From contig NZ_KB913013.1 in the NCBI RefSeq assembly GCF_000383955.1, forward strand, positions 5,916,325 to 5,980,324: DNA of 64,000 bases, written 5' to 3'. A program made the translations under genes and the position numbers. Under the pieces are notes generated by a model, which was not told the origin of the DNA, made no database searches, and worked only from the letters and a program-made list of their open reading frames with translations. The stretch comes from Rudanella lutea DSM 19387 (lineage in GTDB: Bacteria > Bacteroidota > Bacteroidia > Cytophagales > Spirosomataceae). Numbering within the stretch: the first letter of the stretch is position 1; the number at the start of each line of letters is the position of its first letter. Positions 32,951 to 47,854 of this stretch are shown here, piece after piece.

Positions 32951-33452
32951 CTGCACTTTCAGAGAGTTGATTTTGTTGCGCCATATCACGAATCGACAGC
33001 TGATCAAAATAATGTTGCCTGATAAACTTCCGTTCCTGATTGTTTAACGTTTCCATGGACTTGCGGAGCTGTTCAGGGCACGCAAAACTTTCTTCATTTT
33101 CAGCAGCTGCCAGATTCATTTGCAAAAATTCAGATTCTTCGACTACCTCAATCAGAATTTTGTCCTGCCGACGCAGATGGTCATAGCATAAATTCTGAGT
33201 TACGGAGTACACCCAAGTACTGAACCGAGCAGTACCGCTGAAGCTGTCAAGCCGGGCTAAGACTTTTAGAAAAAGGTCTTGGGATAGATCTTTTGCATCT
33301 TCTTGACGCTTTGTATAGCGGCTACACAAACTTATCACTTTACTCTGGTAGCGTATGTAAAGGGCGTCGAAATAGACGGCCTGACGCGTGTTCAAGTATA
33401 ACTGAACAAGTTCTTCATCACGTAATGATTCTTTTGATAGAGGTATTCTCAC
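32883..33452 (-). CDS. ECF-type RNA polymerase sigma factor
   Basis: A 189-residue sigma-70 family protein. Region 2 spans ~20-95 (AVYFDALYIRYQSKVI, AKDLSQDLFLKVL, FSTWVYSVTQNLCYDHLRR) and region 4 ~130-180 (LNNQERKFIRQHYFDQLSIRDMAQ, SESAVKMRLMRARGRLR). The regions stand in normal order and length. No anti-sigma gene is adjacent, which is unusual for the family. The gene converges on the TPR kinase and overlaps its 3' end by 68 bp, so antisense interference is possible. Confidence 0.93.
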   Translation of the reverse strand: MRIPLSKESLRDEELVQLYLNTRQAVYFDALYIRYQSKVISLCSRYTKRQEDAKDLSQDLFLKVLARLDSFSGTARFSTWVYSVTQNLCYDHLRRQDKILIEVVEESEFLQMNLAAAENEESFACPEQLRKSMETLNNQERKFIRQHYFDQLSIRDMAQQNQLSESAVKMRLMRARGRLRQNYIQFVQV

Positions 33453-33666
33453 GTATTGTTAGACTAACAGGCTATTTAGTTAATCTAGTCAAAATTAGTC
33501 CTACATATAAAGCATTACAATTAACAAACTATTAACTTAAATTTAAATGTCCCCAATACGTAAATCATTGATACGAATGAGCAATTCCTTAAAAAATGAG
33601 TATTTCGGAGTAAACTGGCTCAGCGTCACTTTAGGTGAATCCCAGTACTTTTTTGGTTGAAGAAGT

Positions 33667-33990
33667 ATGGACCTGACCCCACTCTTGCCGCTTGGATTTC
33701 TGTTCTGCCACCATCAACTCACCGACGACTCATTGGTTATTGGTTTGTTAGCCATCGATGCGGTTGGCAGTTGTCCGCTTTGTCAGACACCCGCCAACCG
33801 AGTGCATAGTTTCTACCAATGCACCTTAGCCGACCTACCCATAAGTGGTAAACGCATCAAACTCCACGTGTGACTACGCAAGTTTTTCTGGCCACTAGCT
33901 GACTGTCCTCGCAAAGTCTTTGCCCAGTCATGCCACTCCGTCTGCGAACCCTATGCCCGTAGACTCCTCAGAGCAGACCAACAGATCTGA
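33667..33990 (+). pseudogene. ISL3-family transposase, N-terminal piece
   Basis: The first 68 codons include the family's zinc-binding segment CPLCQTPANRVHSFYQ and DLPISGKRIKLHV. An in-frame TGA follows (33871-33873). After it the frame continues with LRKFFWPLADCPRKVFAQ, which is typical of the next family segment, up to another stop at 33988. The IS3-type fragment begins directly after. The gene is therefore inactive. Confidence 0.75.
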
Positions 33991-34125
33991 ACTTGCTACA
34001 GTATAGTGGAGATTTTTTCTTAGGCAGCCATCGAGGAGGTGTAAAAATAACATTCTTGTTGACTGGGGGTACGGTAGCTTAATCTCGAATGTTTTCGCCG
34101 ACGATTACACCACCCTTCAATGTAC

Positions 34126-34141
34126 CGCTCAGGCGGCCCTG
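34126..34141 (+). repeat. 16-nt mini-insertion, diverged copy (E)
   Basis: CGCTCAGGCGGCCCTG inside the IS3-type orfB. Removal gives TTT GAG TAC ATT GAA GGG on the coding strand, that is FEYIEG, the family's usual motif; with it the frame is broken. It differs from the other copies at positions 5, 6, 12, 15 and 16. The changes at 5/16 and 6/15 are paired, so the internal repeat stays complementary (CAGG/CCTG). The element sequence lies opposite to the orfB reading direction. Confidence 0.8.
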
Positions 34142-34218
34142 TCAAAGGTGGCTAATCGAGCCGCTGCCCGCGTCTCAAAATGAGTGGGGTTAACCAACTC
34201 GCTTTTGAGCGTCTTGAA

Positions 34219-34234
34219 TCGGATCGCCGAAGCG
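34219..34234 (-). repeat. 16-nt mini-insertion (D)
   Basis: On the minus strand CGCTTCGGCGATCCGA. Its removal joins GAG AGT TTT to TTC AAG ACG, giving ESFFKT, the conserved segment holding the catalytic Glu. The insertion lies two codons after that Glu. Flanks are T on both sides and no target duplication is visible. Confidence 0.88.
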
Positions 34235-34261
34235 AAAACTCTCAGCAACCGCATTAGGCCA

Positions 34262-34277
34262 TCGGACCGCCGAAGCG
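34262..34277 (-). repeat. 16-nt mini-insertion (C)
   Basis: On the minus strand CGCTTCGGCGGTCCGA. Removal gives AAT TGC TGG CCT AAT GCG, that is NCWPNA, leading into the catalytic VAES. Only 27 nt separate it from copy D. It is identical to the copy in the IS256 transposase at 46460. Confidence 0.88.
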
Positions 34278-34560
34278 GCAATTTCCCTTCCGACTCATGC
34301 TCTGCTCAACTGGCAAGTCCTTTAGTTGCGCTCTGAATTCGGTGCAGGCATATTGAACCCCACGGTCCGAATGAAACAGAAGTCGACCGTTTAGTGGCCT
34401 GTTCTTGAGGGTCATACGCTAAGCGGCCACACTCATATCCACCGCTTTGAGACTCTCACTCAAGGCCCAGCCTACCACTTTCCGATCCGCCAAATCCAAA
34501 ATCACGGTTATATAGAGCCACCCCTCAATGGTGGCAATGTAGGTGATGTCGGACACCCAT

Positions 34561-34576
34561 CGCTTCGGCGCTCCGA
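34561..34576 (+). repeat. 16-nt mini-insertion (B), opposite orientation
   Basis: On the plus strand CGCTTCGGCGCTCCGA, so antisense to orfB, unlike copies C and D. Removal gives GGG CAA AAA TGG GTG TCC GAC ATC, that is GQKWVSDI, which holds the first catalytic Asp. Variable position 11 is C here, G or A in the other copies. Confidence 0.88.
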
Positions 34577-34965
34577 TTTTGCCCCGGTTTATCAGCTGTG
34601 AACTCTCTGTTTAGCAAGTTTTTGGCTACTGGATAATCGTACTTTGAGTCAGTGGTCTGTACTCGATACTTTTTGTACATAATGCTTCGTATGCCCGCTT
34701 TTTGCATAAGTCGAGTAACGCGATTGCGGGCCACCTTTATGCCCTGATCACTAAGTTCATCAACAATTCGGGGACTGCCGTAACGAGATTGACTTTGCCG
34801 ATGCACTCGTCGGATATGGCTCTCCAACTGCTTCTGATTTGTTGTCTGGTACTAACTGGATGCTTCCGCCAATAGTAATAGCCACTACTGCTCACATTGA
34901 GCACTTTACACATCCTTTCAACGGAAAATTCGCTGGCATGTTCCTTTATGAAGTGGATTTGCCAG

Positions 34966-35315
34966 AAACAGATCGGCTCCTTCTGAAACACTTGCTTGGT
35001 GGTAATGAACCTATCAGCCAAGTCCATCGCTTGGGTTTACAATTCAAGAAACTGATGGAGACTAAACAAGCTCATGAGTTAGCTAGTTGGTGTGCTGATG
35101 TCGAAAATTTACTTATCTTGAGTGGTTTTGTGTGGGCCATCCGTCAAGATTTTGCTGCCATTGAAGAAGCCTTCCTCTCAGAGTGGAGTAATAAGCAAAC
35201 GGAGGAACAGGTGAACCGGCTGAAGACCATCAAGCGAACGATGTATGGCAAAGCAAACTTTGACCTATTACGGCTGCGGGTGTTGGCCCAAAATTGGACT
35301 GGTCCCCCAAAGTGA
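34966..35315 (+). pseudogene. ISL3-family transposase, C-terminal piece
   Basis: The plus-strand frame reads DRLLLKHLLGGNEPISQVHR, then HELASWCADVENLLILSGFVW and finally SEWSNKQTEEQVNRLKTIKR followed by MYGKANFDLLRLRVL. The EQVNRLKTIKR-MYG block is the C-terminal signature of ISL3-family transposases. The catalytic middle was lost where the IS3-type fragment now sits. The frame stops 25 bp before the right inverted repeat. Confidence 0.78.
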
Positions 35316-35340
35316 CGCTCAGCCACTTTGACCGGAATAC

Positions 35341-35708
35341 ACATATACCTAGCCCCGTTGATCGCCCGGTTGGGTTTGACCGACGATACGATCCGCTACT
35401 ATGCCCAGTACGTCCTCGATAACCGGAGCTTACAGTTCATTAGAATGTAGGGAGCTCCATGCTACCGCTAAATATACTCGAACAGCTTAATGTGTGAATT
35501 AGCTTAGAAAGCAGAAAACATGCCCTGTTTTCACTGCTATAGTGTGATTATGCCACTTTTAGTGAGAAACTTTAGATTCACTCTGAATATGGATAGGACC
35601 CATTTTAGGTTGAAAGCCCAGTGTATAAGACCTTTATAGTAATTGTATTGTAACATTGGCTAAATTGGTGAGTTCGAAAGACCCGTGAATTACTGAACTG
35701 ATATAGTA
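35341..35708. other. Gap with C-terminal fragment of a lost gene
   Basis: Directly right of the ISL3-type element the plus strand encodes LIARLGLTDDTIRYYAQYVL and nine more residues up to a TAG at 35448-35450. This looks like the last ~35 residues of a gene cut off by the element. I cannot name the family. The rest of the gap, to the integrase stop at 35709, is AT-rich and shows no gene. Confidence 0.4.
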
Positions 35709-36680
35709 TTACAGCCCTAACTTCATAGCAGCATTATGTTTCACAATCTGTTGCACCCGGGTATAACGATCAATCATCGTCCTCGTACGATGCTTTGTTT
35801 GCTGCATGATTTGGGAATCATCAGCACCGTTGAGTTTGGCAATAGTCACAAACGAAGCCCTCAGCGAGTGTGCTGAATAGGCATCACCCAGATACATTTT
35901 TACCGCTCTCGCTACCTGCTTGTCCGACAACCGATCCGTCGTGACCTGCTCTCCCTTTCGTATCCGTACAAAAAGAGGCCCTGAGCTACGTTCTAATACG
36001 TTGATGTAGTCCTGTAGGGAACGTACAGGACAGGTGTCGGGATCCGGACTGTAAAAGATTGCTTTCTGTTCGGTTCGCCCATACTGATTGGTTTTACTGC
36101 CCTGAAAACTAAGGATCGCTCCGTGGCGTGTAAACTGAACTCCTTCGATATCCAGAGCAACCAGTTCTGAACGGCGAAAAGCCCCCGCGAACCCAACCAG
36201 TAGCAGCGCCCGATCCCGCATACCTGTCGGTGTTGGCGGAATAGGGCGTATCTGCTCTTTGTATTCCTGTATATCAAACGCGGGTGCCTGAGTTGGCTCA
36301 GTACCTATACTTCGCTTGATTCCTTCTAAAACCAGTCGTACCGTTTCGTCGGCCGACGGGTCTGGATGCTTATGAAGGCGATGCCATTTTCGAATTGCCG
36401 CCAATCCACGGATGATTGTAGACCACTTATGTTCGGAAGCCTGATCGGATAGATACGTAGCTAAGGTTGCCGGGCTGATTGGAAGATCATCGATGCCTTG
36501 CTGGCGAAGCCACGCCTGTACCTTTTTGATGTCTGCGGAGTAGGCAATCCGCGTGTTAGTCGAGCCTTCAATACCTTTTCTAAAAAAAGCCGCCGTTTGC
36601 TGATTCAGTTGTTGTGCTGAACAAATGGTTACGGAATGGGCCTCACTGATAACATTAGGAGTAATGACTGACTTTCTCAT
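35709..36680 (-). CDS. Tyrosine recombinase / integrase
   Basis: A 323-residue XerC/D-type recombinase. The N-terminal SAM-like DNA-binding domain covers ~24-110 (NTRIAYSADIKKVQAWL). The catalytic set is complete: R170 (AGAFRRSELVAL), K196 (GSKTNQ), H271 and R274 (AHSLRASF), H297 (TKHRT) and Y306 (IDRYTRVQ). Beside the replication gene its usual role would be resolving plasmid dimers or integrating a mobile segment; I see no candidate core site. The gap to rep is 131 bp and both genes read the same way. Confidence 0.92.
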   Translation of the reverse strand: MRKSVITPNVISEAHSVTICSAQQLNQQTAAFFRKGIEGSTNTRIAYSADIKKVQAWLRQQGIDDLPISPATLATYLSDQASEHKWSTIIRGLAAIRKWHRLHKHPDPSADETVRLVLEGIKRSIGTEPTQAPAFDIQEYKEQIRPIPPTPTGMRDRALLLVGFAGAFRRSELVALDIEGVQFTRHGAILSFQGSKTNQYGRTEQKAIFYSPDPDTCPVRSLQDYINVLERSSGPLFVRIRKGEQVTTDRLSDKQVARAVKMYLGDAYSAHSLRASFVTIAKLNGADDSQIMQQTKHRTRTMIDRYTRVQQIVKHNAAMKLGL

Positions 36681-36811
36681 AGACGTGTAGAAGAATATGG
36701 AGCAAGGTACAGATTTTACTGTTATGTCCGATAAGTAAAAGTTATCGGAAGTAGTAAATAAGGTTACTCTTGCCGGACGACTCTCTTTTTTTCCCTTCTA
36801 TTCTTACGCAA

Positions 36812-37921
36812 TTAGCCGACGTCCCCGGATGGGAGTCCCTTCTTCTTATAGTTGAAGACGCTTTGGGCGACGTAGGCTTCAGGGTCTTTGTTGGCAAATC
36901 CGTAATCGGCATATAGATCGGCGCGTAGAAATGCCTGTAGCTTATCTGAATTCTGAAGGATTGCTTTCCGTTGCTGATGTGTGAAGGACGGGTAGTATTG
37001 ACTGAGTTTGGTGCCGGCATAGGCGATGATCTCAGCAATGTCCATCTGCATAAGTTCATCATACCGCTGCTTCATTTCCGCCTTTTTGGTTTCCTTCTCC
37101 AACTCATCAACAGACATTTTTGACTTAATGTGAAACGTGATACCAACCACGGCTCGACTTTGCATCATCGGCGTGTACGTTACTGATAAACCTGTGTGCT
37201 CGTTGATCTGCCGCAGTGATAAGTCGATGACCCGAGTCCGAAATGCAGAGTAGCTGTTATACGATTTTTCCTTCGCGCCGATCAGTTCCCGCAGTTCATC
37301 TAAACCGACACGCCAAATGCCTGTGTTTCGGAAGCGGGCTAGGTTTGTGAAAAGTAGTTGAGCATATTCACTGCTCAAAATCAGCGCATCTTCAAGACCA
37401 TACTGTGCGTAGCCACTACCCAGAAACAGAAAGACGGGGATAACAGCATGATACATTGTCAACTCAATAATGCCTTTGTTGGGCCAGTATTCGGCCATCG
37501 GAAAAACAACGACGTTTGTATGTTTCCCTGATTCGTCTTCCCAACTGATGGTACGCTTTTGAATCAGGTCCAGCACTTTCTTGATAGAGGAATTTGGATT
37601 ACCCTTAATTACCTCCGAGTAATGAAAACGAAACTTTAATTCCTCAAACGGCTTGATTTTCAATTTATCAAGTGCCTGTATATTTCGAACCTCACGAAGT
37701 ACCAGCCAGTAAAGACGACGCTCGAAGAACCCAAACTCCGTCGTACTGGTCAGCAACTTCAGAGGCTCCCGAATCAAAATAGTCTTGTTCGTATCTGTGC
37801 GAAGGACAATGGTTTCGGGGTTTACCTCCACCGGGGAGGTTACTGTCGCGCTCTCAAATACCAGCGAGAGTTGACCATCTGCCAGTTGAAGGGATTTGTT
37901 CGTGCTGGATAACTTTTTCAT
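36812..37921 (-). CDS. Rep_3-family plasmid replication initiator
   Basis: A 369-residue initiator. Two winged-helix domains are expected at ~45-170 and ~180-290. Visible hallmarks are FFERRLYWLVLREV near the start, FRFHYSEVI, ELTMYHAVIPVFLFLG, LSSEYAQLLFTNLARFRNTG and VGLDELRELIGA. Rep_3 proteins bind iterons as monomers to start replication and bind inverted repeats as dimers to repress their own gene. Both kinds of site are present directly upstream (see 37924-37993 and 38077-38353). The C-terminal ~80 residues (AYVAQSVFNYKKKGLPSG) are also typical. The start at 37921 lies two bases from an inverted iteron-like sequence, so autoregulation is likely. Confidence 0.92.
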   Translation of the reverse strand: MKKLSSTNKSLQLADGQLSLVFESATVTSPVEVNPETIVLRTDTNKTILIREPLKLLTSTTEFGFFERRLYWLVLREVRNIQALDKLKIKPFEELKFRFHYSEVIKGNPNSSIKKVLDLIQKRTISWEDESGKHTNVVVFPMAEYWPNKGIIELTMYHAVIPVFLFLGSGYAQYGLEDALILSSEYAQLLFTNLARFRNTGIWRVGLDELRELIGAKEKSYNSYSAFRTRVIDLSLRQINEHTGLSVTYTPMMQSRAVVGITFHIKSKMSVDELEKETKKAEMKQRYDELMQMDIAEIIAYAGTKLSQYYPSFTHQQRKAILQNSDKLQAFLRADLYADYGFANKDPEAYVAQSVFNYKKKGLPSGDVG

Positions 37922-37923
37922 AC

Positions 37924-37993
37924 CCTAACAAATAATAGTAGGTGCAAGGTAAAGGGTTTATCGTTCCTAACAAAGTCGATGTAATTTGTTAGG
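37924..37993 (-). promoter_or_regulatory. Rep operator: inverted iteron half-sites
   Basis: CCTAACAAA (37966-37974) and TTTGTTAGG (37985-37993) form a perfect 9-bp inverted repeat with a 10-bp spacer. CCTAACAAATAATAG (37924-37938) is a further iteron in reverse orientation ending two bases before the rep start codon. Rep_3 dimers usually bind such inverted sites to shut off rep transcription. Confidence 0.75.
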
Positions 37994-38209
37994 TATAAAA
38001 CATTGATTATTAAGTATTTATAAGTTTTAGTTGTTTCAATTCTTTAAAGTTGAGACCTTTTCTTCCGTGTTTTCTACTATTATCTGTTAGGGTAAAGGAA
38101 TATGCGACAAGGGGTGTTCACTGCCCTCTAAGGAATAAAACTTTGTTTTATACAATTTTTAACCCTCGATCTGCAACTATCTTCCCTTAACGGTTGACTT
38201 CACTTTCTG

Positions 38210-38353
38210 CTATTATCTGTTAGGCTCATTACTATCATCTGTTAGGGATGCTGCTATTATCTGTTAGGGTAAAGACTATTATCTGTTAGGTTTGTGCTAT
38301 CAAATGTTAGGCTTATACTATTAAATGTTAGGCTTCTGCTATTATCTGTTAGA
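38210..38353 (+). repeat. Seven tandem iterons
   Basis: Repeats start at 38210, 38232, 38254, 38276, 38297, 38318 and 38339, so the spacing is 22, 22, 22, 21, 21, 21 bp, about two helical turns. The consensus is CTATTATCTGTTAGG. Copies 5 and 6 carry CAAATG and TAAATG instead of TATCTG, and the last ends AGA. An isolated further copy lies at 38077-38092. Confidence 0.92.
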
Positions 38354-38575
38354 GATAGCTAAGTTATCCACATCTAAGATCCTGAATTTTAAGGGTTTAT
38401 AAGCTATATGTACATCCTATAATTATCTAATTATCTAATCTATCATTTAAAAATGATTTTAAAATTTAAAAATAACTAAGATTATAAGGTCATTGAAAGA
38501 CAAAAAGGCACGCATGCTGGTTAAAGCTGACACGAAAAAGAAAAAATCATAAAAGTTTGGACTACGGTAAAATAT

Positions 38576-38600
38576 TATATTTCCCTTTAAGGGAAATATA
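38576..38600. promoter_or_regulatory. Perfect 12-bp palindrome upstream of the 271-aa gene
   Basis: TATATTTCCCTT-T-AAGGGAAATATA lies 46 bp before the start codon at 38647. Arms of 12 bp with a single central base suit a dimeric repressor; a hairpin in the leader RNA is less likely because the loop is only one base. Confidence 0.6.
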
Positions 38601-38646
38601 AAGCGAATTAGCTATTTTAGCTCCATCAATCTTAATTCTTGGAAAT

Positions 38647-39462
38647 ATGGAAGATGAATTGACCGGCCATGCTAAGCGGAAGCACTACGATAAACAGACT
38701 TATGCCCGGCTATTGGCTCAGTTCACGCAGTTGATGGACGAAGTTCCCAAACTGCGCCCAAATCGCGATGCCTGGGATATTGAGGGTGACTGGGCATCGA
38801 CCGGTGTCATACACTTCGTCGATATGGCTTACCAACCTTTTTTTGAGACAATACGTGATTTCGATTGTCGAACGATTAAGATGGTCAATTTAGACCGGCC
38901 TGCTGTTCGCATTACTTTTTACCGTAAACACCGGTACTTTTTGCTAAAGGACAAAGACCTTACGCCCGATCAGAAGCAGGAGCAGATCAAACAATACATT
39001 GACGACCTCACCGTGAAAGCTCAGATGCTGGAATCGAAGCTGGAAAGTATGAATGCTACGAAACAGGCCGAGACAAAGGGTTTGATCGGATTACACTGGG
39101 AGCAGGTGAAGACATGGCGGGAAATTTTGGATAACCCTACCCGGTATGAAATGGCTGTGTCTAACTATAGTCGTCAGCATTTTTACGTAACGGCTAATTA
39201 CAAGTATCGGCTTCCTTCGGGTGATTATGCTAACGCCCAAGAGCATCTATTGAACACCCAGCGCGATAAACTGGGCAATATAACCCAGGTACGTTATAAC
39301 ATATTCTTCGTTGACCCCGTCGAGATTTTGCGCGATCATCCCTATCAGAATCGTGAGGTAGAAGGATACCTTAATAATTTCCCTGTTAAGTCAGAGGTTG
39401 GCCGGATGACGATTTATGCACGGCTGAGGCCAGAAAATGAAGTAGTGGATTCGTTCAAATAG
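38647..39462 (+). CDS. Hypothetical plasmid protein (271 aa)
   Basis: A soluble 271-residue protein starting MEDELTGHAKRKHYDKQTYARLL. It has a helical coiled segment (~115-150, KAQMLESKLESMNATKQAETKG) and a C-terminal part rich in beta strands (HFYVTANYKYRLPSGDYANA). No catalytic motif or family is recognised. It faces away from the origin and is separated from it by a palindrome, so it may be controlled by a plasmid repressor. Replication or partition accessory roles are possible but unproven. Confidence 0.6.
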   Translation: MEDELTGHAKRKHYDKQTYARLLAQFTQLMDEVPKLRPNRDAWDIEGDWASTGVIHFVDMAYQPFFETIRDFDCRTIKMVNLDRPAVRITFYRKHRYFLLKDKDLTPDQKQEQIKQYIDDLTVKAQMLESKLESMNATKQAETKGLIGLHWEQVKTWREILDNPTRYEMAVSNYSRQHFYVTANYKYRLPSGDYANAQEHLLNTQRDKLGNITQVRYNIFFVDPVEILRDHPYQNREVEGYLNNFPVKSEVGRMTIYARLRPENEVVDSFK

Positions 39463-39473
39463 CTGTATTAAAA

Positions 39474-39517
39474 TATTTTGGAATAGCAAAATATTAAAAT
39501 TTTACTATTCCAAAATA
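39474..39517. terminator. Bidirectional terminator between convergent genes
   Basis: Perfect 13-bp stem TATTTTGGAATAG / CTATTCCAAAATA with an 18-nt AT-rich loop. It lies 11 bp after the 271-aa gene and 42 bp after the res stop codon, so it can serve both convergent transcripts. It is AT-rich, and an operator role cannot be excluded. Confidence 0.6.
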
Positions 39518-39559
39518 ATAATATCTTTGGCCTAGCTATATAAGTCGAGTATATGGCTA

Positions 39560-42500
39560 CTATTGTTCTACTATACTGTCTTGTCTGAACAACATTTTAG
39601 TAAGTATCTTCTCAAGATACTCGGCAGATTGGTGCGTCTGAAAATAAATGTTGTGTGCATTGAAGTCGTCAATGGGGGGTAAGCCTCCCCAGCTTTTTAA
39701 CCGTTCGTAAGGAGTTACCGATACAATGAAGGAAGACAAATGCAAGGCCGGATCATTTAGTTTCGGCTCCAACTCGGTTTGAATACGCCGTGAGAACTGA
39801 ATCTTTGGCTCATCAAATCCTGAAAAATTACGGATGCCCTTGGGATCGATAAAAGCCAGGTGCTGGTGCCCGGCCTGAATTACCCAAAGCAGAAAATCGG
39901 GGTAGAAGTTGTTGGCATCGAAAAAGCCTATACCTTTCCGGCTTTGGTTACGCAGCAGATGAACAGTAGTGTCCTGTAGAAAAGAAAGTCCATAAAGTAC
40001 GACTTTTCGTAAGTCCTCGACAAACCGCCGTTCGCCCTCGTTTAAGGCGACAGGTTGAATGCTAACGGCGTCCTGATAGCTTTTAGCATCAATGTACAGC
40101 AGGGGTTGGTACAGGTGCGGCACTACATGCAGCGCATCAAAACGGTTACCTAAACGGCTGTCGGTTGTGAACTGACCGGCTTGTAGAGCAGCCTGTAACC
40201 GGCGCAGGTTGTCGATCAGGGTTTCGTTGCCGGCTTCAATGATGCTTATTCGATATCCCTTCTCGAAATTAGGGTGGGCGGTGTCCAGCAGGGCGGTTTC
40301 GGGGTGTTGGGCATTGTACGCACTTCGGGCCTGATTGTACATACGTTCACAGTAGCCCTTCAGCAAACTGGTCGCTATTTCCTGCCAGGTACGTACCTGC
40401 TCGAAGTGGGTAAATTCCAGTTGTTCAGCCGGAATAGACAGCTCGTACCAGGATGTATCGTGCAGAGCCGCCAGCAGGTCATCCCGACGCAGATCGATGT
40501 TATACCAGCCCCGTTCATTTTTATAGGTGAGCAGGGCCGCGTATAATTGGTCAACATCTAAGAAAGCAATATGCCGGTCGGTCAGCGAATGCGTTTGGAC
40601 TACCGTTACCTGACTGAGTGTATTTCCACGCGCCGATTGCATGAGCTGAACCTTGGGGTACCAGTCCAGGCGAACGGGGTACATCGGTTTGCCCGTCAGA
40701 CGAACCACCTGCTGTTTCTTAAAGTCACGTCCTTCCCGAAAACGAACGTACTTCAGCCCCTTTTTAGCCAGATCGACTACCGGCAGAATGGGTAGCGTTA
40801 GCTCGATGGGTTGCTCCTCATCGCCGTTTTTTAGTCCCTCCCCTTCCAGGTACTCCTTGAAACGATCCATGTAGTCGGCTCGTATGCCGAAGATGTTTAG
40901 GGTTTCCAGCCGGGTCAAGTGGTCAGCAATAGATGCCGGCCGGATACTGGCGTCAAGTTGGGTGCTTCGTTTGAGTGAAAACCCATATCCCTTTAAGCGT
41001 ACCCCCCGGCCAAACAACTGAATGATTTCGGAGCCTTCACCCCGTCCAATGTTCAGCAAGCCCATTGTGCTGACCCGCCAGCTACTCCAGCCCTCCGAGA
41101 ACTTCTTGGAGCCGATTAGCAGATTGACCGGCGAACCAGGCGCGTTGATGGACCGAAACAGTGAGGCCGAAAACTCCTTTTCGTCGGTCAGCAAGCCGAC
41201 CTCTTCGCAGAGTTTGAGCAGGGCCGTATCGTCGCCGACGTTGATAACGCCGAAGTAATCGGCATTGCCCAGCCGCAGGCCAATTTCACCGTCCTGCCCT
41301 TTCAGGTTATCTATGTGCAGCAGGGCGTTGGCCGACGAACTGTTGAACACGTCGGTCAGCAATTGCGTAAACAATTGGTCACTACTGAACCCCTGCTGGC
41401 GAAGGTAACGGAAACTGTTACTGAAGATAGACCGGCCTGCCTTGTCGATCAGGCCATCCTGCCCGACCAGTAGCAGGTCAATATCGCGTCGGCTACGGTC
41501 GCCATGCTTCACAAAATCGGCCAGGAATAGCAGCACCTCCACCACATCTGATACCTTCCTGCCGCCGTCGGTACGAACCGCCGTTACTTTACTGCCCACA
41601 AAAATAGCTAAGGGCTTTTCGATGCCGAAGGCGGTGGCACCGGCCCGGTCATTGCGGTAGAGCAGCAACTGCTCAAAGAACGTGAGCAGGCAGGCGGTCA
41701 GGTAGCGCGTTGTGAAGTCGTTGGACTGGGTATTGGCGGGGCGGCCTTCCGCTAAGTTCAGAATGTGGTAATCTTTGCCATATCCGTCGGCGTAAAAATA
41801 CCGGTACGAGTAATCGAACAAGATGCTGCGGCCGTATTCGTTCAGCAGGTCACGCTGTTTTTTGCCCGTCTGGGCATTAACGGCCTGCCCAAAGGTGGCC
41901 GAGTACTCAAAGGAAAAGCCTTCGGCGCTCAGGCGGTTTCGGTAATCTTTCCAGACTTCGCCCCCGCTGCCCCGGTGGCCTTCGTCGATCAGCACCAGGT
42001 TGTTGCCCTCAAACGCTTCGATGGCCACCGTCTTTTCGCCACCCGTTTCGCGAAACTTGCTGATGTCGATGATTTCAATCTTCTGACCGACGTACAGTGT
42101 ACCGCCTGTTTTGGAAAACAATTCGGCATCAAGCCCCGACTGCCCAAACTCAGCCAGGTGCTGCCGTGACAGCCCATCGTTTGGGGTTAGCACGATAATC
42201 CGGTTCAAGCTTTTCTCTCTGCCATGCTTTTTCAAGTAGTACTGATATTGCAGAATATTGACGTGCATCAGCAGGGTTTTGCCCGACCCGGTGGCATTCC
42301 AGAAAGCCAGTTTGGTTAGTTCGGATACGTCGGTGTATTTATTAACGCCTGTGGAGCGGTCGAATCGTTCTTCCCAAAACCGGTTAATGTCGGTCAGGAG
42401 CGCGTCGGCATCGCGAAAGTACCGGTCCAGGAAGATTTCGGTGAACAGCAGGGCCACGTACTGAAAATACTTCCAGCGCACCGGCTGCGGACGCGATTGG

Positions 42501-42739
42501 CTGACACGCAGGGTGTGCGAGACAATGTTCTGATCGTACTCGAACAGCAGCGATTCGGGCAGGTTTGTGTTGGCGTAGAAGCGTTGCACCAACTGCCGGT
42601 GAAAATGGCTGACGTGGTTTTCGTCGTAGCCCTCGTAGGCTGCGTCGCGCAGGTTCTCGGACAGGGCTTGTAGGTCTTTGACACCGAATTGGTGCAGGAT
42701 GTATTGGTTGAGCAGCAGAGCTTGCGAAAGGCGGGGCAT
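39560..42739 (-). CDS. res: Type III restriction enzyme Res subunit
   Basis: A 1059-residue helicase-nuclease. The SF2 helicase core shows Walker A ATGSGKT (149-155) in FWNATGSGKTLLMHV and the DEAH-type box DEGH (252-255). A later segment has IGSKKFSEGWSSWRVS and QLFGRGVRLKG, the conserved helicase motif VI region. The C-terminal nuclease is PD-(D/E)XK: PDF at 947-949 and IDPKG at 964-968. In type III systems Res cuts DNA only in complex with Mod, which also recognises the site. Its start follows the DUF4276 stop by 4 bp. The associated mod gene is broken, so the enzyme is probably inactive unless another Mod serves it. Confidence 0.9.
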   Translation of the reverse strand: MPRLSQALLLNQYILHQFGVKDLQALSENLRDAAYEGYDENHVSHFHRQLVQRFYANTNLPESLLFEYDQNIVSHTLRVSQSRPQPVRWKYFQYVALLFTEIFLDRYFRDADALLTDINRFWEERFDRSTGVNKYTDVSELTKLAFWNATGSGKTLLMHVNILQYQYYLKKHGREKSLNRIIVLTPNDGLSRQHLAEFGQSGLDAELFSKTGGTLYVGQKIEIIDISKFRETGGEKTVAIEAFEGNNLVLIDEGHRGSGGEVWKDYRNRLSAEGFSFEYSATFGQAVNAQTGKKQRDLLNEYGRSILFDYSYRYFYADGYGKDYHILNLAEGRPANTQSNDFTTRYLTACLLTFFEQLLLYRNDRAGATAFGIEKPLAIFVGSKVTAVRTDGGRKVSDVVEVLLFLADFVKHGDRSRRDIDLLLVGQDGLIDKAGRSIFSNSFRYLRQQGFSSDQLFTQLLTDVFNSSSANALLHIDNLKGQDGEIGLRLGNADYFGVINVGDDTALLKLCEEVGLLTDEKEFSASLFRSINAPGSPVNLLIGSKKFSEGWSSWRVSTMGLLNIGRGEGSEIIQLFGRGVRLKGYGFSLKRSTQLDASIRPASIADHLTRLETLNIFGIRADYMDRFKEYLEGEGLKNGDEEQPIELTLPILPVVDLAKKGLKYVRFREGRDFKKQQVVRLTGKPMYPVRLDWYPKVQLMQSARGNTLSQVTVVQTHSLTDRHIAFLDVDQLYAALLTYKNERGWYNIDLRRDDLLAALHDTSWYELSIPAEQLEFTHFEQVRTWQEIATSLLKGYCERMYNQARSAYNAQHPETALLDTAHPNFEKGYRISIIEAGNETLIDNLRRLQAALQAGQFTTDSRLGNRFDALHVVPHLYQPLLYIDAKSYQDAVSIQPVALNEGERRFVEDLRKVVLYGLSFLQDTTVHLLRNQSRKGIGFFDANNFYPDFLLWVIQAGHQHLAFIDPKGIRNFSGFDEPKIQFSRRIQTELEPKLNDPALHLSSFIVSVTPYERLKSWGGLPPIDDFNAHNIYFQTHQSAEYLEKILTKMLFRQDSIVEQ

Positions 42740-42743
42740 TCTG

Positions 42744-43412
42744 TTAGTCAGTACGGGGTTGAGCCAACCCTTCCAGCCGCGTCAGCCACTCATTGAAATG
42801 AGGACATTCGCGCCGGAGAACGGGTAGCGTAATTTCTTTAAGAATCAGGATTCCATCGGCCACTTTATCGTAACCGGGACAGAGCGACAAAATGCGCTTC
42901 GACGGAGCCGTTAACAGGCTATCGTTAATCTCTTCGGGGGTTTGATACCCCTGCCGTATTGCGGTTAAACTACCGGCTACCAGTTTAGGATGGTCGAGCT
43001 GAAGCCAGCTTTCGGTATGGGCTGGATCGGCGAACAGCAGGGCTTCAAACTCGTGCAGTTGCAGATACGGAATGAACCTTTGGTGATCGATACGCTCACC
43101 AAAGGCCTGTTCGAGCCGGGCGATACGCGCATACGGCCGCATTAGCCGGGCCTCTTCGTAGGCTGGAAACCCGCTATCTAAGCCATACAGGTCAATCAAC
43201 GTAGTGTGCCAGGCAGTGGAATCTTCGCGAAGCCACTGCCGGATGTCGAACTCGGCTTTGCCAAAACTGGTGTAGCCTCCCCGGTGCCCTTTGCTGGTCC
43301 GCAATCGGCGTACGTCGGCGTAGATGCCCAGCGGAAGCAGATGGGGACGCAGCAACTGATTGACAAACTGTTCTTCGGCATGGCCCTCGGCGGTGATGTT
43401 CAATCGAATCAT
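42744..43412 (-). CDS. DUF4276 Toprim-like protein
   Basis: I chose MIRLNITAEGHAEEQF (start 43412) because its ATG overlaps the TGA of the upstream ATPase gene (ATGA), implying coupled translation. The 222-residue product has the family's acidic marks: E9 in ITAEGHAEE, D74 in LIDLYGLDSGFP and E121/E123 in LHEFEALLFADP. The pattern EG..E, later D, later E is like a Toprim catalytic core, so a nuclease role is plausible (inference). It pairs with the AAA ATPase and sits between mod and res. Confidence 0.78.
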   Translation of the reverse strand: MIRLNITAEGHAEEQFVNQLLRPHLLPLGIYADVRRLRTSKGHRGGYTSFGKAEFDIRQWLREDSTAWHTTLIDLYGLDSGFPAYEEARLMRPYARIARLEQAFGERIDHQRFIPYLQLHEFEALLFADPAHTESWLQLDHPKLVAGSLTAIRQGYQTPEEINDSLLTAPSKRILSLCPGYDKVADGILILKEITLPVLRRECPHFNEWLTRLEGLAQPRTD

Positions 43413-44530
43413 GGGGTTCCGCCGATTACGTTTTTCTCCCACAAGTCGCCCAGGCTGTACTCGGTGAGCCAAGTGGCCAGTTCCTCGGTCTGTAGCCGGC
43501 GGAACGTGGAACTTCCGGGGCGGCCGTCCGCGTTTTCGCGGTCCACGACGATGATGTCGTCGGGGGAGAAGGCATTGACCAGGTTGATACTTTGTGTAGA
43601 AACGATGACCTGGGTACGTGATGCGGCTTTTTTGAGCAGACCGGCCAGCAGCGCCAGGGCCGTGGGATGCAGGCCCAGTTCGGGTTCGTCAAGCAGGATC
43701 AGGCTGGGCAGGTTGGGTTGAAGCAGTAGCGTGGCCAGACAGATGAACCGCAACGACCCGTCGGACAGATCGCCCGCGTTGAAGCGCATGTCTGAACCGG
43801 TATCCTGCCACTCTAGCAGAATTTTCTGTTCGTTGTACGGATTGGGCCGCAGGGCAAAATCCTTGAAAAACGGCAGTACCAGCTGAATCGTGCTGACGAT
43901 GCGGTCGTAGTGCCGGGGCGACTTCTGTTGCAAATAGTACAGGAAGGCCGCCAGGTTGCCAGCATCAGGCCGCAGAAACGCTACGTCGTTGAGGTCTGCC
44001 AGCTTCTTGACCCGGGCCTCGGCGCTGGTGTCGTGAAAATGATACACCCGCCAGTCCTGCAACTGTGATCTGATGAGTCGGCTAACTGAGCGATCATCTT
44101 TCGTTAGTTTTGACTCCGTGCTGCCCCTCGAAACGGGTTTTTCATCGGGATTCAACCCAAAATCAAATCCTTTATGTGTTACATCTTCATCCCGTATGAT
44201 GAGCCGGTCGCCTTCGCCCGGAACAAGCTCAAGATGATACACTATATCGCCTACGAGCAGTTCAATATGGATCAACTGGGTTTCCCGGCTCCCGTAATGC
44301 AACAGCTTGTCGGCCCCTCCTTTGACGGCCGTATAAACCTGCAGGCGCCCATTGATGATTTCATTCAGGAACCGGAACAACTCGATGAAGTTCGACTTTC
44401 CCGCGCCGTTCTGCCCGATCAACACATTCAGATGCTGGACAGGCAGATATGGTAGTTCCCGAATTGACCGAAAACCGCTGACGAAGATAGTGTGTAAAAC
44501 GTGCTGCTTGTCCATACTTAAAGCTACCAT
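43409..44530 (-). CDS. AAA ATPase partner of DUF4276
   Basis: A 373-residue AAA_21/ABC-type ATPase. Walker A is GQNGAGKSN (39-47), the signature-like LSDGSLRFICL precedes Walker B LILLDEPELGLHP (277-289), and a D-loop with STQSIN follows. There is no C-terminal nuclease domain, so any nuclease would be the DUF4276 partner, as in split OLD-type pairs. Its start lies 26 bp after the mod stop. An alternative start at Met6 is possible. In the same operon as mod and res it suggests a second defence module built into the restriction operon. Confidence 0.82.
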   Translation of the reverse strand: MVALSMDKQHVLHTIFVSGFRSIRELPYLPVQHLNVLIGQNGAGKSNFIELFRFLNEIINGRLQVYTAVKGGADKLLHYGSRETQLIHIELLVGDIVYHLELVPGEGDRLIIRDEDVTHKGFDFGLNPDEKPVSRGSTESKLTKDDRSVSRLIRSQLQDWRVYHFHDTSAEARVKKLADLNDVAFLRPDAGNLAAFLYYLQQKSPRHYDRIVSTIQLVLPFFKDFALRPNPYNEQKILLEWQDTGSDMRFNAGDLSDGSLRFICLATLLLQPNLPSLILLDEPELGLHPTALALLAGLLKKAASRTQVIVSTQSINLVNAFSPDDIIVVDRENADGRPGSSTFRRLQTEELATWLTEYSLGDLWEKNVIGGTP

Positions 44531-44556
44531 TTTCTCCGCTACGGCGGACCGTTCCC

Positions 44557-45897
44557 CTACCCCATTCGTTTGCTGAATTCCTCCTCAATGAGTGTAACCT
44601 TCCATGTCTCGTCGTCGCGCCGGAGATTCTCCAGGTGGTTGTCGCCGTTGACGTAGATGCGGTCGAACTCGCGGTCGCGGGGATTGTAGCCGCTTTTTTG
44701 CAGCCATTCGTTCAGGGCCGCGTTATCCACCTCGTCCTGATTGCGCCAGATGATGAGCGTTTTCTCTCCTTTCAAGGTTTGCCCCGTAACGACGCGGATA
44801 TGCTTACCGCTGATGTACTGCCCTTCGACTACTAAGCCGATGAGGTAGTTGAAGGTTTCGACCAGATCGACGCGGGTGGGGGTGCGCTCGTTTTGCCGGG
44901 TTACGTCGATGTAGCAGGCGAAGGGGTTGCGGAACCGGGCCACATCAAACAAGGACGCCCGGCTTTCGACATCGAGCATATAGCGGAGCAAATACCCCTC
45001 GCGGAACTGAGCCGAACCACCGAGCGCCAGTTCCTGCTGGGCTGTGCGGGCCAGGCTAAGGTTGTTGAGTGTGTCTTCGTAGCTTTCCAGCCGCAGGTAT
45101 TTGAAGCAGTGGCTGATACCCTGCCTGCCAAGAGGCTTGCCGTCGCGCCAGTCTTTCGAGTAAATGACTTTCTGGATACGCGGCTTCGTGACGGTATCGA
45201 AATACTCGCCCATCTCGACCAGAATATATTTACGCTTGCCCTCATCTTCGCGGTTTAAGTTGATAACCGCGTGCCCTGTTGTACCCGAACCGGCGAAATA
45301 GTCAAGGATTATTGATTCTTTACCAACCCCAGAAACTTTCAACGAATCACTTACGGCATGAACCGATTTTGGGAAACTAAACGCCTGCTTATCGCCAAAA
45401 ATATCTGTTATAGCTGCAGTTCCGTTATCACGTGCTGAATAAAGCGGGTTATCCCACCATGTTCGAGGCAGTATGCCACTTAAATTTATACGTTTCTTTT
45501 TATAAACTTCATACGAATCACCCTGCAATTTAACTTTGAATTCTGTTAGATCAGCACGTACTCTATCAACTCCATACTGCCAAACTTTCTGATTACCAGA
45601 ACTATTTATTGGATAAATTGGTATCTCTGACTCTGTAACCTGTTCATTAATGACCCATGAATTTTGCAAGTCTGACCAGCGCATATCAGGAACCCGAATA
45701 GCTTCTGTGTTCTTATTGAAATAAATTGGAAAGAACTGTTTAGGCCGATCATATCTATTTGAATCAGCGCTACTTTTTCTGAAGTTCTCCCATTCAAACG
45801 GGACACCGTTCTGGTCCACTTCATCATACCGCTCTATCTGCTGTTCTGAGTGTGGTAAGCGACCGACTTCAGTTAACTTATCTGATTTTGAGACTGC
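44557..45897 (-). pseudogene. mod: Type III methyltransferase Mod, N-terminus lost
   Basis: The frame is open to the edge of the IS256 element, reading KAVSKSDKLTEVGRLPHSEQ at the very edge and then EWENFRKSSADSNRYD. It contains the DNMT motif I (ILDYFAGSGTTGHAVINLNRED) and the C-terminal Mod part (RAQ..LALGGSAQFREGYL region). In beta-class Mod proteins the catalytic DPPY motif and target recognition start lie N-terminal of motif I, and here they are absent, being cut off by IS256. The protein cannot methylate and the gene is probably not expressed. The 420 residues from GTG at 45819 are the C-terminal portion. Confidence 0.85.
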
Positions 45898-45963
45898 TTT
45901 TTAAACTGTGTCAAGATTGGGTTTGAATAGAAGGGAAGAAAACAATTTCCTAATTTCCTACTC

Positions 45964-47197
45964 ATGACTGACTCCTTCGACTACGAAGCCTTCAAAAAAG
46001 CGGCCATCAAGGGCCTTTATGATGGCAAGCCCCTTACCGGCCAGGACGGCCTGTTCGCTCCCTTACTCAAGCACTTTTTAGAATCAGCTTTGGACGGGGA
46101 AATGGAGAACCACTTAGCCGAGTCACGCCCCCAAGCCAACCGACGCAACGGCAAAACCACCAAGACAGTTAAGAGTAGCGCAGGGCTACTGGAGCTGACC
46201 ACGCCCCGTGATCGAGCGGGCAGCTATCAACCGCAACTCGTCCCCAAGCGCCAAGTGGTACTCACTGATCAGTTGGAAGCTAAAATTCTTTCGCTCTATG
46301 GGCGCGGCTGTAGCTACGCCGACATCAGTCAGCATCTCCAGGAGATGTATGGTTACTCACTCTCTGATAGTGAGCTAACCAGCATTACCGATAAGGTTTT
46401 GCCCGCCATGCGGGACTGGCAAAACCGGCCCCTGGCGAGTTTGTATGTATTGATGTGGCCGCTTCGGCGGTCCGATGGATGGCATCTATTACAAGGTTCG
46501 TCAGGAGGGTAAAGTGGTCACGCGTGTGTTGTACAGCGTGATCGGGCTGACGCTATCAGGTCGTAAACAGGTACTGGGCATTTATACAGCCGAGAGCGAA
46601 TCGGCCCGCTTCTGGCTAACAGTGCTGACGGACTTAAAACAACGAGGGGTAGAAGACATTCTGATTAGTTGTGTGGATGGGCTCAAAGGCTTTGATACGG
46701 CTATCAACACGGTTTTCCCCCGCACAACGGTCCAGTTATGCATTGTGCATCAGTTACGTAATTCGTTCCGCTTTATTCCTGATAAGCATCTGAAAGAGTT
46801 TGTCAAGGCCATCAAAACCGTTTATCAGGCTCCTACTGCCGAGCAGGGCTGGGAGAATCTACAATGGATGCAAGAGCAGTGGGGCAGTAGGTACCCGCAA
46901 GCACTGGCAGGCTGGGTGAGCAACTGGTCGTTGCTATCCTCGTTTTACGATTACCCCGCCAGCCTTCGCAAGGTGGTCTATACCACCAACACGGTGGAAG
47001 CTTACCATCGCCAGCTCCGCAAGGTGACCAAGACGAAGGGAGCTTTTGCTTCTGACGTAGCTTTGCAAAAGCTGGTGTATCTGGTGATTCAGAATCTGGA
47101 AACAAAGTGGGAAACAAAAACCTACAACTGGAAGGAGGTCATCAACGACCTGACAAGTATCTTTGAAGAACGCATCAAACCGCATCGCTTCGACTAA
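45964..47197 (+). pseudogene. IS256-family transposase split by a 16-nt insertion
   Basis: Two overlapping frames together make a 405-residue IS256 transposase. The first ends at a TAA near 46510; the second starts in the next frame. Removing the 16 nt at 46460-46475 fuses them to read MWLDGIYYKVRQEGKV, with total length a whole number of codons. Catalytic residues are D in WLDG, D in SCVDGLKGF and E in NTVEAYHRQ. No other lesion is visible, so the gene is intact apart from that insertion. The break is one codon before the first catalytic Asp. Confidence 0.9.
46460..46475 (+). repeat. 16-nt mini-insertion (A) in IS256 transposase
   Basis: CGCTTCGGCGGTCCGA between TGATGTGGC and TGGATGGCATC. 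Deletion gives ATG TGG CTG GAT GGC ATC (MWLDGI). Identical to copy C in the IS3-type element about 12 kb away, although the two transposases are unrelated. Confidence 0.92.
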
Positions 47198-47221
47198 AGC
47201 CCGCCTGACACAGTTTAAAAA

Positions 47222-47854
47222 TCACTCCCAAGTGATGCCGCCGGTATCGTCCAATTCGACTATTTGCGTCAGCCTGGCCTTCATTTCCTCGGTCAGCAGC
47301 AAACTAAGCCTTCGATAGGTTTCCTGGTGCAGCTGTTCATCCAGGCTACCAACAATCCTTTCCAATGTCCCAATAGACGGCCTCATAATTTTTTCCTGCC
47401 CCAGTTTTAAACACACTTGCCTGAGCAATATCGGCTGGTTGTCATGTTCCATCCCCTTATCGAGCAGCCAGGGCAAAAGCCAGATTTCATCCAGGGGCTG
47501 CCACCGGCGGAATTTCAAATATTTTAAGATTACATTTAAATGCTCCGTTCTGGTCTTATCCCGTTGCCCGTATATTAATAACAGTTCAATATCAGAATCC
47601 AGTTGCCTACTTACCATGGCAGCTACATTTGCCGGGATCTGCTGCTGCCATTTGTCTGGAAGAAAACCCATGAACCGGACAATCCCAATCTGGAGTGCGA
47701 TCGCTAGCCGGTTGTGCTCCCCTCTGAACGATTTAAGAAAAATATTGTCCTGCCGCGTGATTTGGAAAAATTGCATCAGGTCATATTCTGATATTTCTGT
47801 CGGGACCTTTTCGTAACGTTCACGCTGGGATTGGTTCAAAAATCGTGATGCCAT
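47222..47854 (-). pseudogene. tnpA: Tn3-family transposase, N-terminal 210 residues
   Basis: The frame gives the DUF4158-type N-terminal domain of Tn3-family transposases: MASRFLNQSQRERYEKVPTE, FLKSFRGEHNRLAIALQIG and GFLPDKWQQQIPANVAAM. Family members are about 1000 residues. Here the frame stops at a TGA formed exactly where the IS256 end begins, so about 80 percent is missing. It cannot transpose. It diverges from the resolvase gene, as is common in Tn3-type elements. Confidence 0.85.

Follow-up and report, generated by a model that had tools for sequence, protein, structure and literature searches.

Sixteen-nucleotide inserted repeats with two covarying stems and target-coupled bases in Rudanella lutea and other Spirosoma-type Bacteroidota

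Five 16-nt inserts in two transposase genes

This study concerns very short repeats in a 64,000-nt stretch (the window) of the genome of Rudanella lutea DSM 19387 (contig NZ_KB913013.1, positions 5,916,325 to 5,980,324). Five 16-mers were found inserted in two transposase genes, one of the IS3 family and one of the IS256 family. They appear to belong to a superfamily of 15-16-nt DNA inserts with one covarying two-stem pattern, and bases of the inserts are correlated with bases of the target. The initial annotation had taken them for a single 16-nt repeat, a description that is replaced here by that of a superfamily.

Exact matches to CGCTTCGGCGNTCCGA were located in the window at 34219(-), 34262(-), 34561(+), and 46460(+), and five matches were obtained when up to three mismatches were allowed (shuffle mean, 1.67). 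The four exact copies and one diverged copy, at 34126, are the five sites that had been listed; a related 16-mer, CGCTACGGCGGACCGT (44537..44552, plus strand), had been missed. The latter lies between two minus-strand open reading frames (ORFs) and is included on its fit to both stems and to the base 0:11 rule described below.

Four of the inserts are situated in an IS3-family orfB remnant on the minus strand (33987..34952, the blastn range versus IS3 relatives), identified by HTH_21 on one piece and by the restored motifs. The first, CGCTCAGGCGGCCCTG (34126..34141, plus strand), has the CAG/CTG stem variant and is antisense to orfB; its 16 nt are absent from loci L019, L199, L465, and L360. 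CGCTTCGGCGATCCGA (34219..34234, minus strand) is in the sense orientation (ESF^FKT), the site being empty in L019, L199, and L465, whereas in L360 and L319 an insert occupies the same nucleotide position. CGCTTCGGCGGTCCGA is present twice: at 34262..34277 (minus strand) it is sense in orfB (GNC^W), the site being empty in L019, L199, L465, L360, and L319 and filled at the same nucleotide in L008, and at 46460..46475 (plus strand) it is sense in the IS256 transposase (MW^LDG). CGCTTCGGCGCTCCGA (34561..34576, plus strand) is antisense in orfB (GQ^KW), with empty sites in L019, L199, and L319 and filled sites in L360 and L465, the last being a plasmid of Spirosoma sp. KNUC1025. The IS256-family element spans 45890..47229 (plus strand), as delimited by its ends and 8-bp flanks, and its transposase is split at the 16-mer into ORFs 45964-46512 and 46475-47197, both of which match NCBIfam NF033543. 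Deletion of exactly 16 nt restored the frame as had been claimed, and insertion into unrelated transposases, in both orientations, was borne out. By eye, the IS3 gene also has one in-frame stop and an upstream frameshift that are not due to the 16-mers. No Rfam family was above threshold in positions 33000-47500 of the window.

Filled and empty sites

Comparison of empty and filled sites, as proposed in the initial annotation, revealed a precise 16-nt difference at all five sites of the window, with neither loss nor duplication of target bases; the lack of duplication had also been noted from the sequence. At 46460, the 16-nt gap was present in all seven homologous stretches aligned, which came from five genomes. 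An open frame of 402-424 aa was observed in six of these; the alignment of the seventh (genome G058) contained additional small gaps. At each of the four IS3 sites, 3 to 5 relatives were without the 16 nt, and filled and empty sites formed a mosaic; L466 was not counted at 34561 because of poor alignment, and the alignment of L319 at 34126 is ambiguous because a neighbouring insert adjoins. The idea of an inserted element had been said to fail if related transposases carried the same 16 nt as part of a normal reading frame. The 16 nt were found not to be normal sequence of the homologous transposases, some of which share the same insert at the same place. Filled and empty sites together suggest that the 16-mers have moved.

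In gapped homologous alignments at the sites examined, the gap was exactly 16 in 55 of 81, the other 26 gaps being 1-5 or 15, many of them in repeats. A palindromic repeat of genome G120 was searched for with its flanks fixed and any gap from 0 to 30 nt permitted; among the matches listed, the gap was 0 or 16 and, in one case, 4. At least 11 rows from G120 were filled, and all those from other species were empty, among the matches listed. These palindromic repeats (ATGCTTCGTNCCTCAGCATGAC, with 147 pattern matches in this S. profusum-type genome), which often form inverted pairs about 60 nt apart, are a distinct repeat family.

Insertion points were shared by ten sequence pairs from six points, pairs within one point not being independent. 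The 15 bases on each side agree at 9-14 of 15, and the 16 element bases are identical in nine of the ten pairs. The tenth pair (L204, L465) differs at base 11 (A vs C) and may represent one insertion changed later, because leftward bases 16-45 agree at 29 of 30. Old common descent does not readily explain identical inserts between diverged flanks, for which repeated insertion, gene conversion over a short tract, or constraint on the insert could account. At the point gggcgac^ggga, L466 and L319 have a 15-nt insert, whereas the insert of L019, also 15 nt as judged by the gap, is a different one. Three copies of CGCTTCGGCGATCCGA, head-to-tail and 48 nt in total, were observed at L356 1717-1764 (genome G018). 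Similar 13-nt insertions (GATAACCGCAGCA and GATAACCGCAGTA), outside the 15-16-nt length, were observed at L366 1062 and L447 1202.

The two-stem pattern

A motif-free census of gaps with matching flanks in all-against-all alignments gave 32 unique 16-nt and 8 unique 15-nt insertions, and each of the other lengths observed within 5-40 nt gave 1-14, with 5 nt the most frequent of these. The loci had been chosen for the seed 16-mer, a Y1 gene, IS256, or host repeats, the census itself being independent of the pairing rule; counts of unique sites exclude near-identical contexts. The 32 16-mers represent 23 distinct sequences, and the inserts besides the seed include CGCAACGGCGGACCGT, CGCAATGGCGGACCAT, CGCACGGGCGGCCCCG, GGCACGGGCCGCCCCG, GGCATCGGCCGTCCGA, and GCCACGGGGCGCCCCG.

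Two stems, pairing bases 1-3 with 8-10 and bases 5-7 with 14-16 of the element, were recognized. With wobble and boundary-consistent shifts, all six pairs were formed in 28 of the 32 inserts, compared with 2.9% of random places; with Watson-Crick pairs only and shifts of up to 4 nt, they were formed in 29 of 32, compared with 228 of 9600 shuffled inserts (2.4%). Strand and shift were picked by best fit, and the controls were given equal freedom. For the 15-nt inserts, a stem layout one base shorter was used, and two of eight reached all pairs. Stem 1 occurs as CGC/GCG, GGC/GCC, and GCC/GGC, and stem 2 as TCG/CGA, CAG/CTG, CGG/CCG, ACG/CGT, ATG/CAT, and others. Since paired changes are found in both, covariation supports both stems. 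When bases 5, 6, 15, and 16 were left free in G120, pair 5:16 was present in 33 of 38 (shuffle mean 18; reached by 0 of 5000 shuffles); pair 6:15 barely varied and was uninformative. Because the stems interleave, they would form an H-type pseudoknot or two alternative hairpins.

The stem rule together with the base 0:11 condition (base 0 being the left flanking base) gave 31 distinct 16-mers at 155 sites in the family loci and the window, compared with 0 for a parallel-pairing control. Fifteen of the 31 occur at two or more sites, and some of the singletons may be chance. When the seed 16-mer was omitted, the rule gave 102.6 sites per Mb in the family loci and 3.7 in viral contigs, with 0 for the control in either, and 5.2 in other phyla, where the control also gave 5.2; the rule had been derived from the same loci in which it was counted, and the family loci are not a random sample.

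Coupling between element and target bases

At 107 unique sites, base 0 was a pyrimidine in 100 and base 17, the right flanking base, was T in 92, so that insertion is mostly at Y^T. For the five sites of the window, the initial annotation was right in giving a pyrimidine on the left in all; T on the right, which had been counted in four, is present in all five when read in the orientation of the element. The target had further been described as short or loosely defined. It is not merely loose: the left base goes with base 11 of the element, and the same nucleotide was hit in diverged transposases.

Among 127 unique sites, base 11 was G or T with C0, or A or C with T0, in 107 (shuffle mean 70.6; 0 of 10,000 shuffles reached this value). 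A set of 177 sites collected by the stem rule, free of the 0:11 condition, showed G11 with C0 in 107 of 114, A11 with T0 in 26 of 32, and C11 with T0 in 14 of 16, base 0 being mixed for T11 (8 C, 5 A, 1 G, 1 T). In these 177 sites, mutual information was highest for 11:0 (z 35), followed by 12:-1 (z 13.8), 4:17 (z 13.7), and 5:-1 (z 11.8); a linkage between bases 5 and 12 would account for the last signal. Positions 11:0, 12:-1, and 4:17 are outward extensions of stem 1 and stem 2 into the flanks. Some contacts are not of the Watson-Crick type: at -1, T12 prefers G and C12 prefers A; T4 occurs with T17, and A4 more often with C17. Such contacts argue against plain copying of the flank and for a guide read-out like that of IS200/IS605. 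When three copies (46460, 34126, and a GGC/GCC copy of L319) were folded as DNA with their flanks, base 0 paired with base 11, folding energies being modestly below those of shuffles (z -2.1, -2.1, and -0.3). The association between element and target bases is a correlation, for which guided choice of the target would account.

Templated fold-back synthesis, in which a 3′ end folds back and a polymerase copies flank bases, would also give pairing of base 0 with base 11, and a Watson-Crick 0:11 pair is indeed present in 97 of 127 sites (shuffle mean 61). However, neither the C11-T0 combination (14 of 16) nor the T-G and C-A preferences at 12:-1 are copied complements. Moreover, three sequences have C11/T0 at one and the same homologous site, and the other bases are fixed per subfamily and common to different genera. 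We consider this process extremely improbable.

Distribution among genomes

The genome of R. lutea contained 10 exact copies, compared with 0 for the reversed pattern. Four are in an interrupted IS256 of which contig C1 has three copies and C2 one, three are in the IS3 gene of the window, two are on C2, in an IS3 gene and in a DDE_3 gene that we take to be IS630-type, and one is chromosomal, at 2.35 Mb. Exact copies were found in all four genomes of the genus (10, 2, 5, and 6). The family sample of 150 genomes gave 296 exact copies in 69 genomes, compared with one match for the reversed control, genome G120 being the richest with 52. According to the initial annotation, the idea of an element would fail if the sequence occurred only here and at chance expectation; in the family, the counts are far above chance. 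Beyond the family, the exact 16-mer was near chance level: of 391 other genomes in the phylum, 6 had it, once in each, compared with 2 for the control; in other Bacteroidota orders there were single matches in named genomes, among the matches listed.

Within the R. lutea genome, the strict rule gave seven sites in 1.52 Mb of sampled chromosome, equal to the control (7); the exact copy at 2.35 Mb is outside this sample. Against controls of 0, the same rule gave four sites in 80 kb (5.846-5.926 Mb), five in the window, and four in 200 kb of C2. The stem rule without the base 0:11 condition gave, sites vs control, 33 vs 30 in the chromosome, 7 vs 3 in 5.846-5.926 Mb, 6 vs 0 in the window, and 7 vs 3 in C2. 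Since the excess is confined here to plasmid-like DNA, the elements live mainly there in this genome. C2 (203,683 bases) is probably a plasmid and the segment of the window probably an integrated plasmid, and such DNA may have collected its elements in other hosts.

Host genes and plasmid context

An ORF of at least 110 aa spans the site once the 16-mer is removed at 54 sites, not all of which are proven interrupted genes. The scan covered pieces of 40, with a Pfam match in 23 and none at 1e-4 in 17. Twenty of the 23 were transposase-type, IS integrase-core, or IS3-type HTH, and the remaining three were a winged-helix domain, a CobW-like domain, and DUF1016/YhcG. The transposase types hit were IS256, IS3/rve, DDE_3, IS110, ISL3, IS4/5-type, IS1, and Y2. 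NCBIfam identified one IS4-type piece and, from a decayed conjugative element, two pieces (TraG, TraJ). Ten of 13 control ORFs with chance loose-pattern matches were scanned, and nine had matches, none to a transposase. Elements were also observed in intergenic repeats. A decayed conjugative element with TraG/TraJ-like genes occupies L351 1-8000 (G003:C501), with seven loose-pattern matches, all of the CCGG type, in 5 kb. At L379 428-443 (genome G128), a CGCACGGGCGGCCCCG element on the minus strand splits a Y1_Tnp gene, the reading continuing in another frame.

In plasmid records, IS3 relatives were present, similarity to IS256 was partial only, and no relative of the L007 host gene was found. 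On the plasmid of Spirosoma sp. KNUC1025, one IS3 gene has been annotated in two parts, the first of which stops just beyond the element; gene annotation is affected because the elements split transposases in public records.

Four IS256 copies were matched in the R. lutea genome, and every one of them is interrupted. A direct 8-bp duplication flanks two (GTACGCTC, GTTTCCCT), and in the other two, that of the window (45890-47229) and the one at G000:C1:5858816, the duplications are swapped (AAGTGATG, CTGATTTT). Their different insertion points with 8-bp duplications indicate that interrupted copies apparently moved. This would be understandable if the 16-mer acted at the RNA level, being spliced out or bypassed by the ribosome while the host transposase still worked. 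Such an element does not account for insertion in both gene orientations or in intergenic repeats, and the IS256 transposase may derive from another host or a lost intact copy; we regard action at the RNA level as very unlikely. The IS256 copies may have been spread by a foreign transposase, by an intact copy since lost, through frameshifting, or through gene conversion.

The swapped duplications fit a circle of about 103 kb that carried most of the window and became integrated when IS copies recombined. The window also contains a Rep3 plasmid initiator (36812-37921) and a restriction-modification-like block (39560-45819), which comprises a ResIII-domain protein (39560-42739), an N6_N4 methylase (44557-45819), and, between them, a putative ATPase named by eye.

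Proposed mechanism and candidate enzymes

A single-strand, guide-assisted route would be expected to leave the traces seen here: exact gain with no target duplication, strand specificity of the target, a small pattern that covaries, and coupling to the flanks. The elements would be non-autonomous and would move strand-specifically through a single-stranded intermediate, with the mover provided in trans and perhaps present in some hosts only; we lean slightly toward such a route. A nuclease, probably of the HUH Y1 type, would select its targets through pairing between bases of the element and bases of the target. This enzyme class is proposed by analogy, with somewhat less confidence than the route, and is the weakest step. 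TnpAREP is described in PMC8266576 as cleaving at CT, and PMC6006769 describes the target site of IS200/IS605 as chosen by guide sequences, non-canonical contacts included. A bolder version, which we hold to be less likely than not, is that of a new class of mobile DNA, pseudoknot-shaped single-strand transposons of 15-16 nt, whose stems would reach into the target and which would code for it on both sides, spreading in transposons and plasmids of Spirosoma-type bacteria and disabling transposases.

Several observations weigh against the single-strand route and its proposed enzyme. The 12:-1 and 4:17 couplings are mostly between subfamilies and may therefore rest on few ancestral changes. Targeting of hairpins was considered and rejected: sites in palindromes were observed, yet joined empty sites fold no better than flanks (48 of 107 lower, p 0.68). 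Y1_Tnp was present in 130 of 150 family genomes, and genomes with strong Y1 matches carry more copies over the 150 (p 0.008), but a resident Y1 mover was also rejected, no clear link being left when genus g12 was omitted (p 0.17). Two genomes, G142 with 15 exact copies and G105 with 4, are without Y1_Tnp, and in four more, which have 4 copies or more, all matches are weak. The 30 best-scoring Y1 loci, few of which are of the repetitive extragenic palindrome (REP) type, contained two CGC/GCG-type 16-mers in flanks of up to 1.5 kb; only one of these fits the rule, and it interrupts the Y1 gene. No GTAG foot was found, the left flanks having Y at base 0 and weak upstream preferences.

In L380-L400, many Y1 proteins have, as judged by eye, the Y..NQ..HH motif of TnpA subclass 1.2 and are a candidate mover. 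This subclass has been reported chiefly from Cyanobacteria and Bacteroidetes, generally without typical IS200 ends.

A DNA enzyme other than HUH (another recombinase or transposase), or capture of short hairpin DNA in repair, is possible but in our view doubtful. Neither tested enzyme family clearly tracks copy number, and exact insertion without duplication names no enzyme. Against this, no bases are common to both junctions, as the core of a recombinase would leave, and repair capture predicts neither the fixed length, the covarying stems, nor the flank coupling.

Conversion of an RNA copy into DNA by reverse transcriptase, reportedly proposed by Elhai et al. in 2008 for cyanobacterial small dispersed repeats (SDRs), is judged rather unlikely here. 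The single covarying pattern could be formed by RNA, and RVT_1 matches are present in G142 and G105, the two genomes lacking Y1_Tnp. On the other side, RVT_1 was found at E 0.001 in none of the four genus genomes, that of R. lutea included; among the 25 family genomes that have 4 or more exact copies, it was missing from 10. A resident reverse transcriptase was thus rejected for the genus; an enzyme in a former host would be compatible.

Comparison with known systems

Five of the 16-mers, as strings, were absent from the paper texts searched. Titles and abstracts on small mobile repeats, Spirosoma or Rudanella repeats, REPINs, and 16-bp insertions included none that describes such elements, most subscription journals and supplements being outside this coverage. 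If the proposed single-strand route is true, the elements would rank among the smallest mobile DNA so far described, with a role assignable to every base. They bear on how DNA too small to encode anything moves and selects its site, and they are testable, as filled and empty sites are available in culturable Spirosoma and the pairing and target rules can be broken base by base.

Like miniature inverted-repeat transposable elements (MITEs), the 16-mers are non-autonomous and palindromic and have many copies. MITEs have target duplications and are several times longer, whereas the empty sites here show no duplicated bases.

REP sequences and REPINs, with TnpAREP (RAYT), are likewise small, palindromic, multicopy repeats, and the C^T preference of the insertion sites resembles the cleavage dinucleotide of TnpAREP given in PMC8266576. 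Unlike REPs, the elements have no GT[AG]G foot, are often inside genes, were not found clustered beside the Y1 genes examined (30 loci), and fall below the REP length of 21-65 nt stated in PMC6006769. IS200/IS605 elements share strand specificity with the 16-mers, and both insert 3′ of a short target without duplicating it; the coupling of target bases to element bases, which is statistical here, would be analogous to their guides. In contrast to these elements, the 16-mers, at about 16 nt, have no room for their own Y1 TnpA gene, no matching TnpA was identified, and the guide-like bases are 3′ of the first stem rather than 5′.

The nearest known kind is the cyanobacterial SDRs, likewise tiny mobile repeats. 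SDR4, SDR5, and SDR6, reportedly described by Elhai et al. in 2008, are said to be 21-27 nt long, dispersed, and inserted in repeats, with compensatory changes supporting a fold; we know of no enzyme for them. The elements described here are also very small, dispersed, and without a known enzyme, are inserted within other repeats (the filled and empty palindromic repeats of G120), and show compensatory changes, in two covarying stems not shown to be the SDR fold. They differ from SDRs in their length peaks at 16 and 15 nt, in their occurrence in Spirosoma-type Bacteroidota, often in transposase genes, and in the coupling between element and flank bases.

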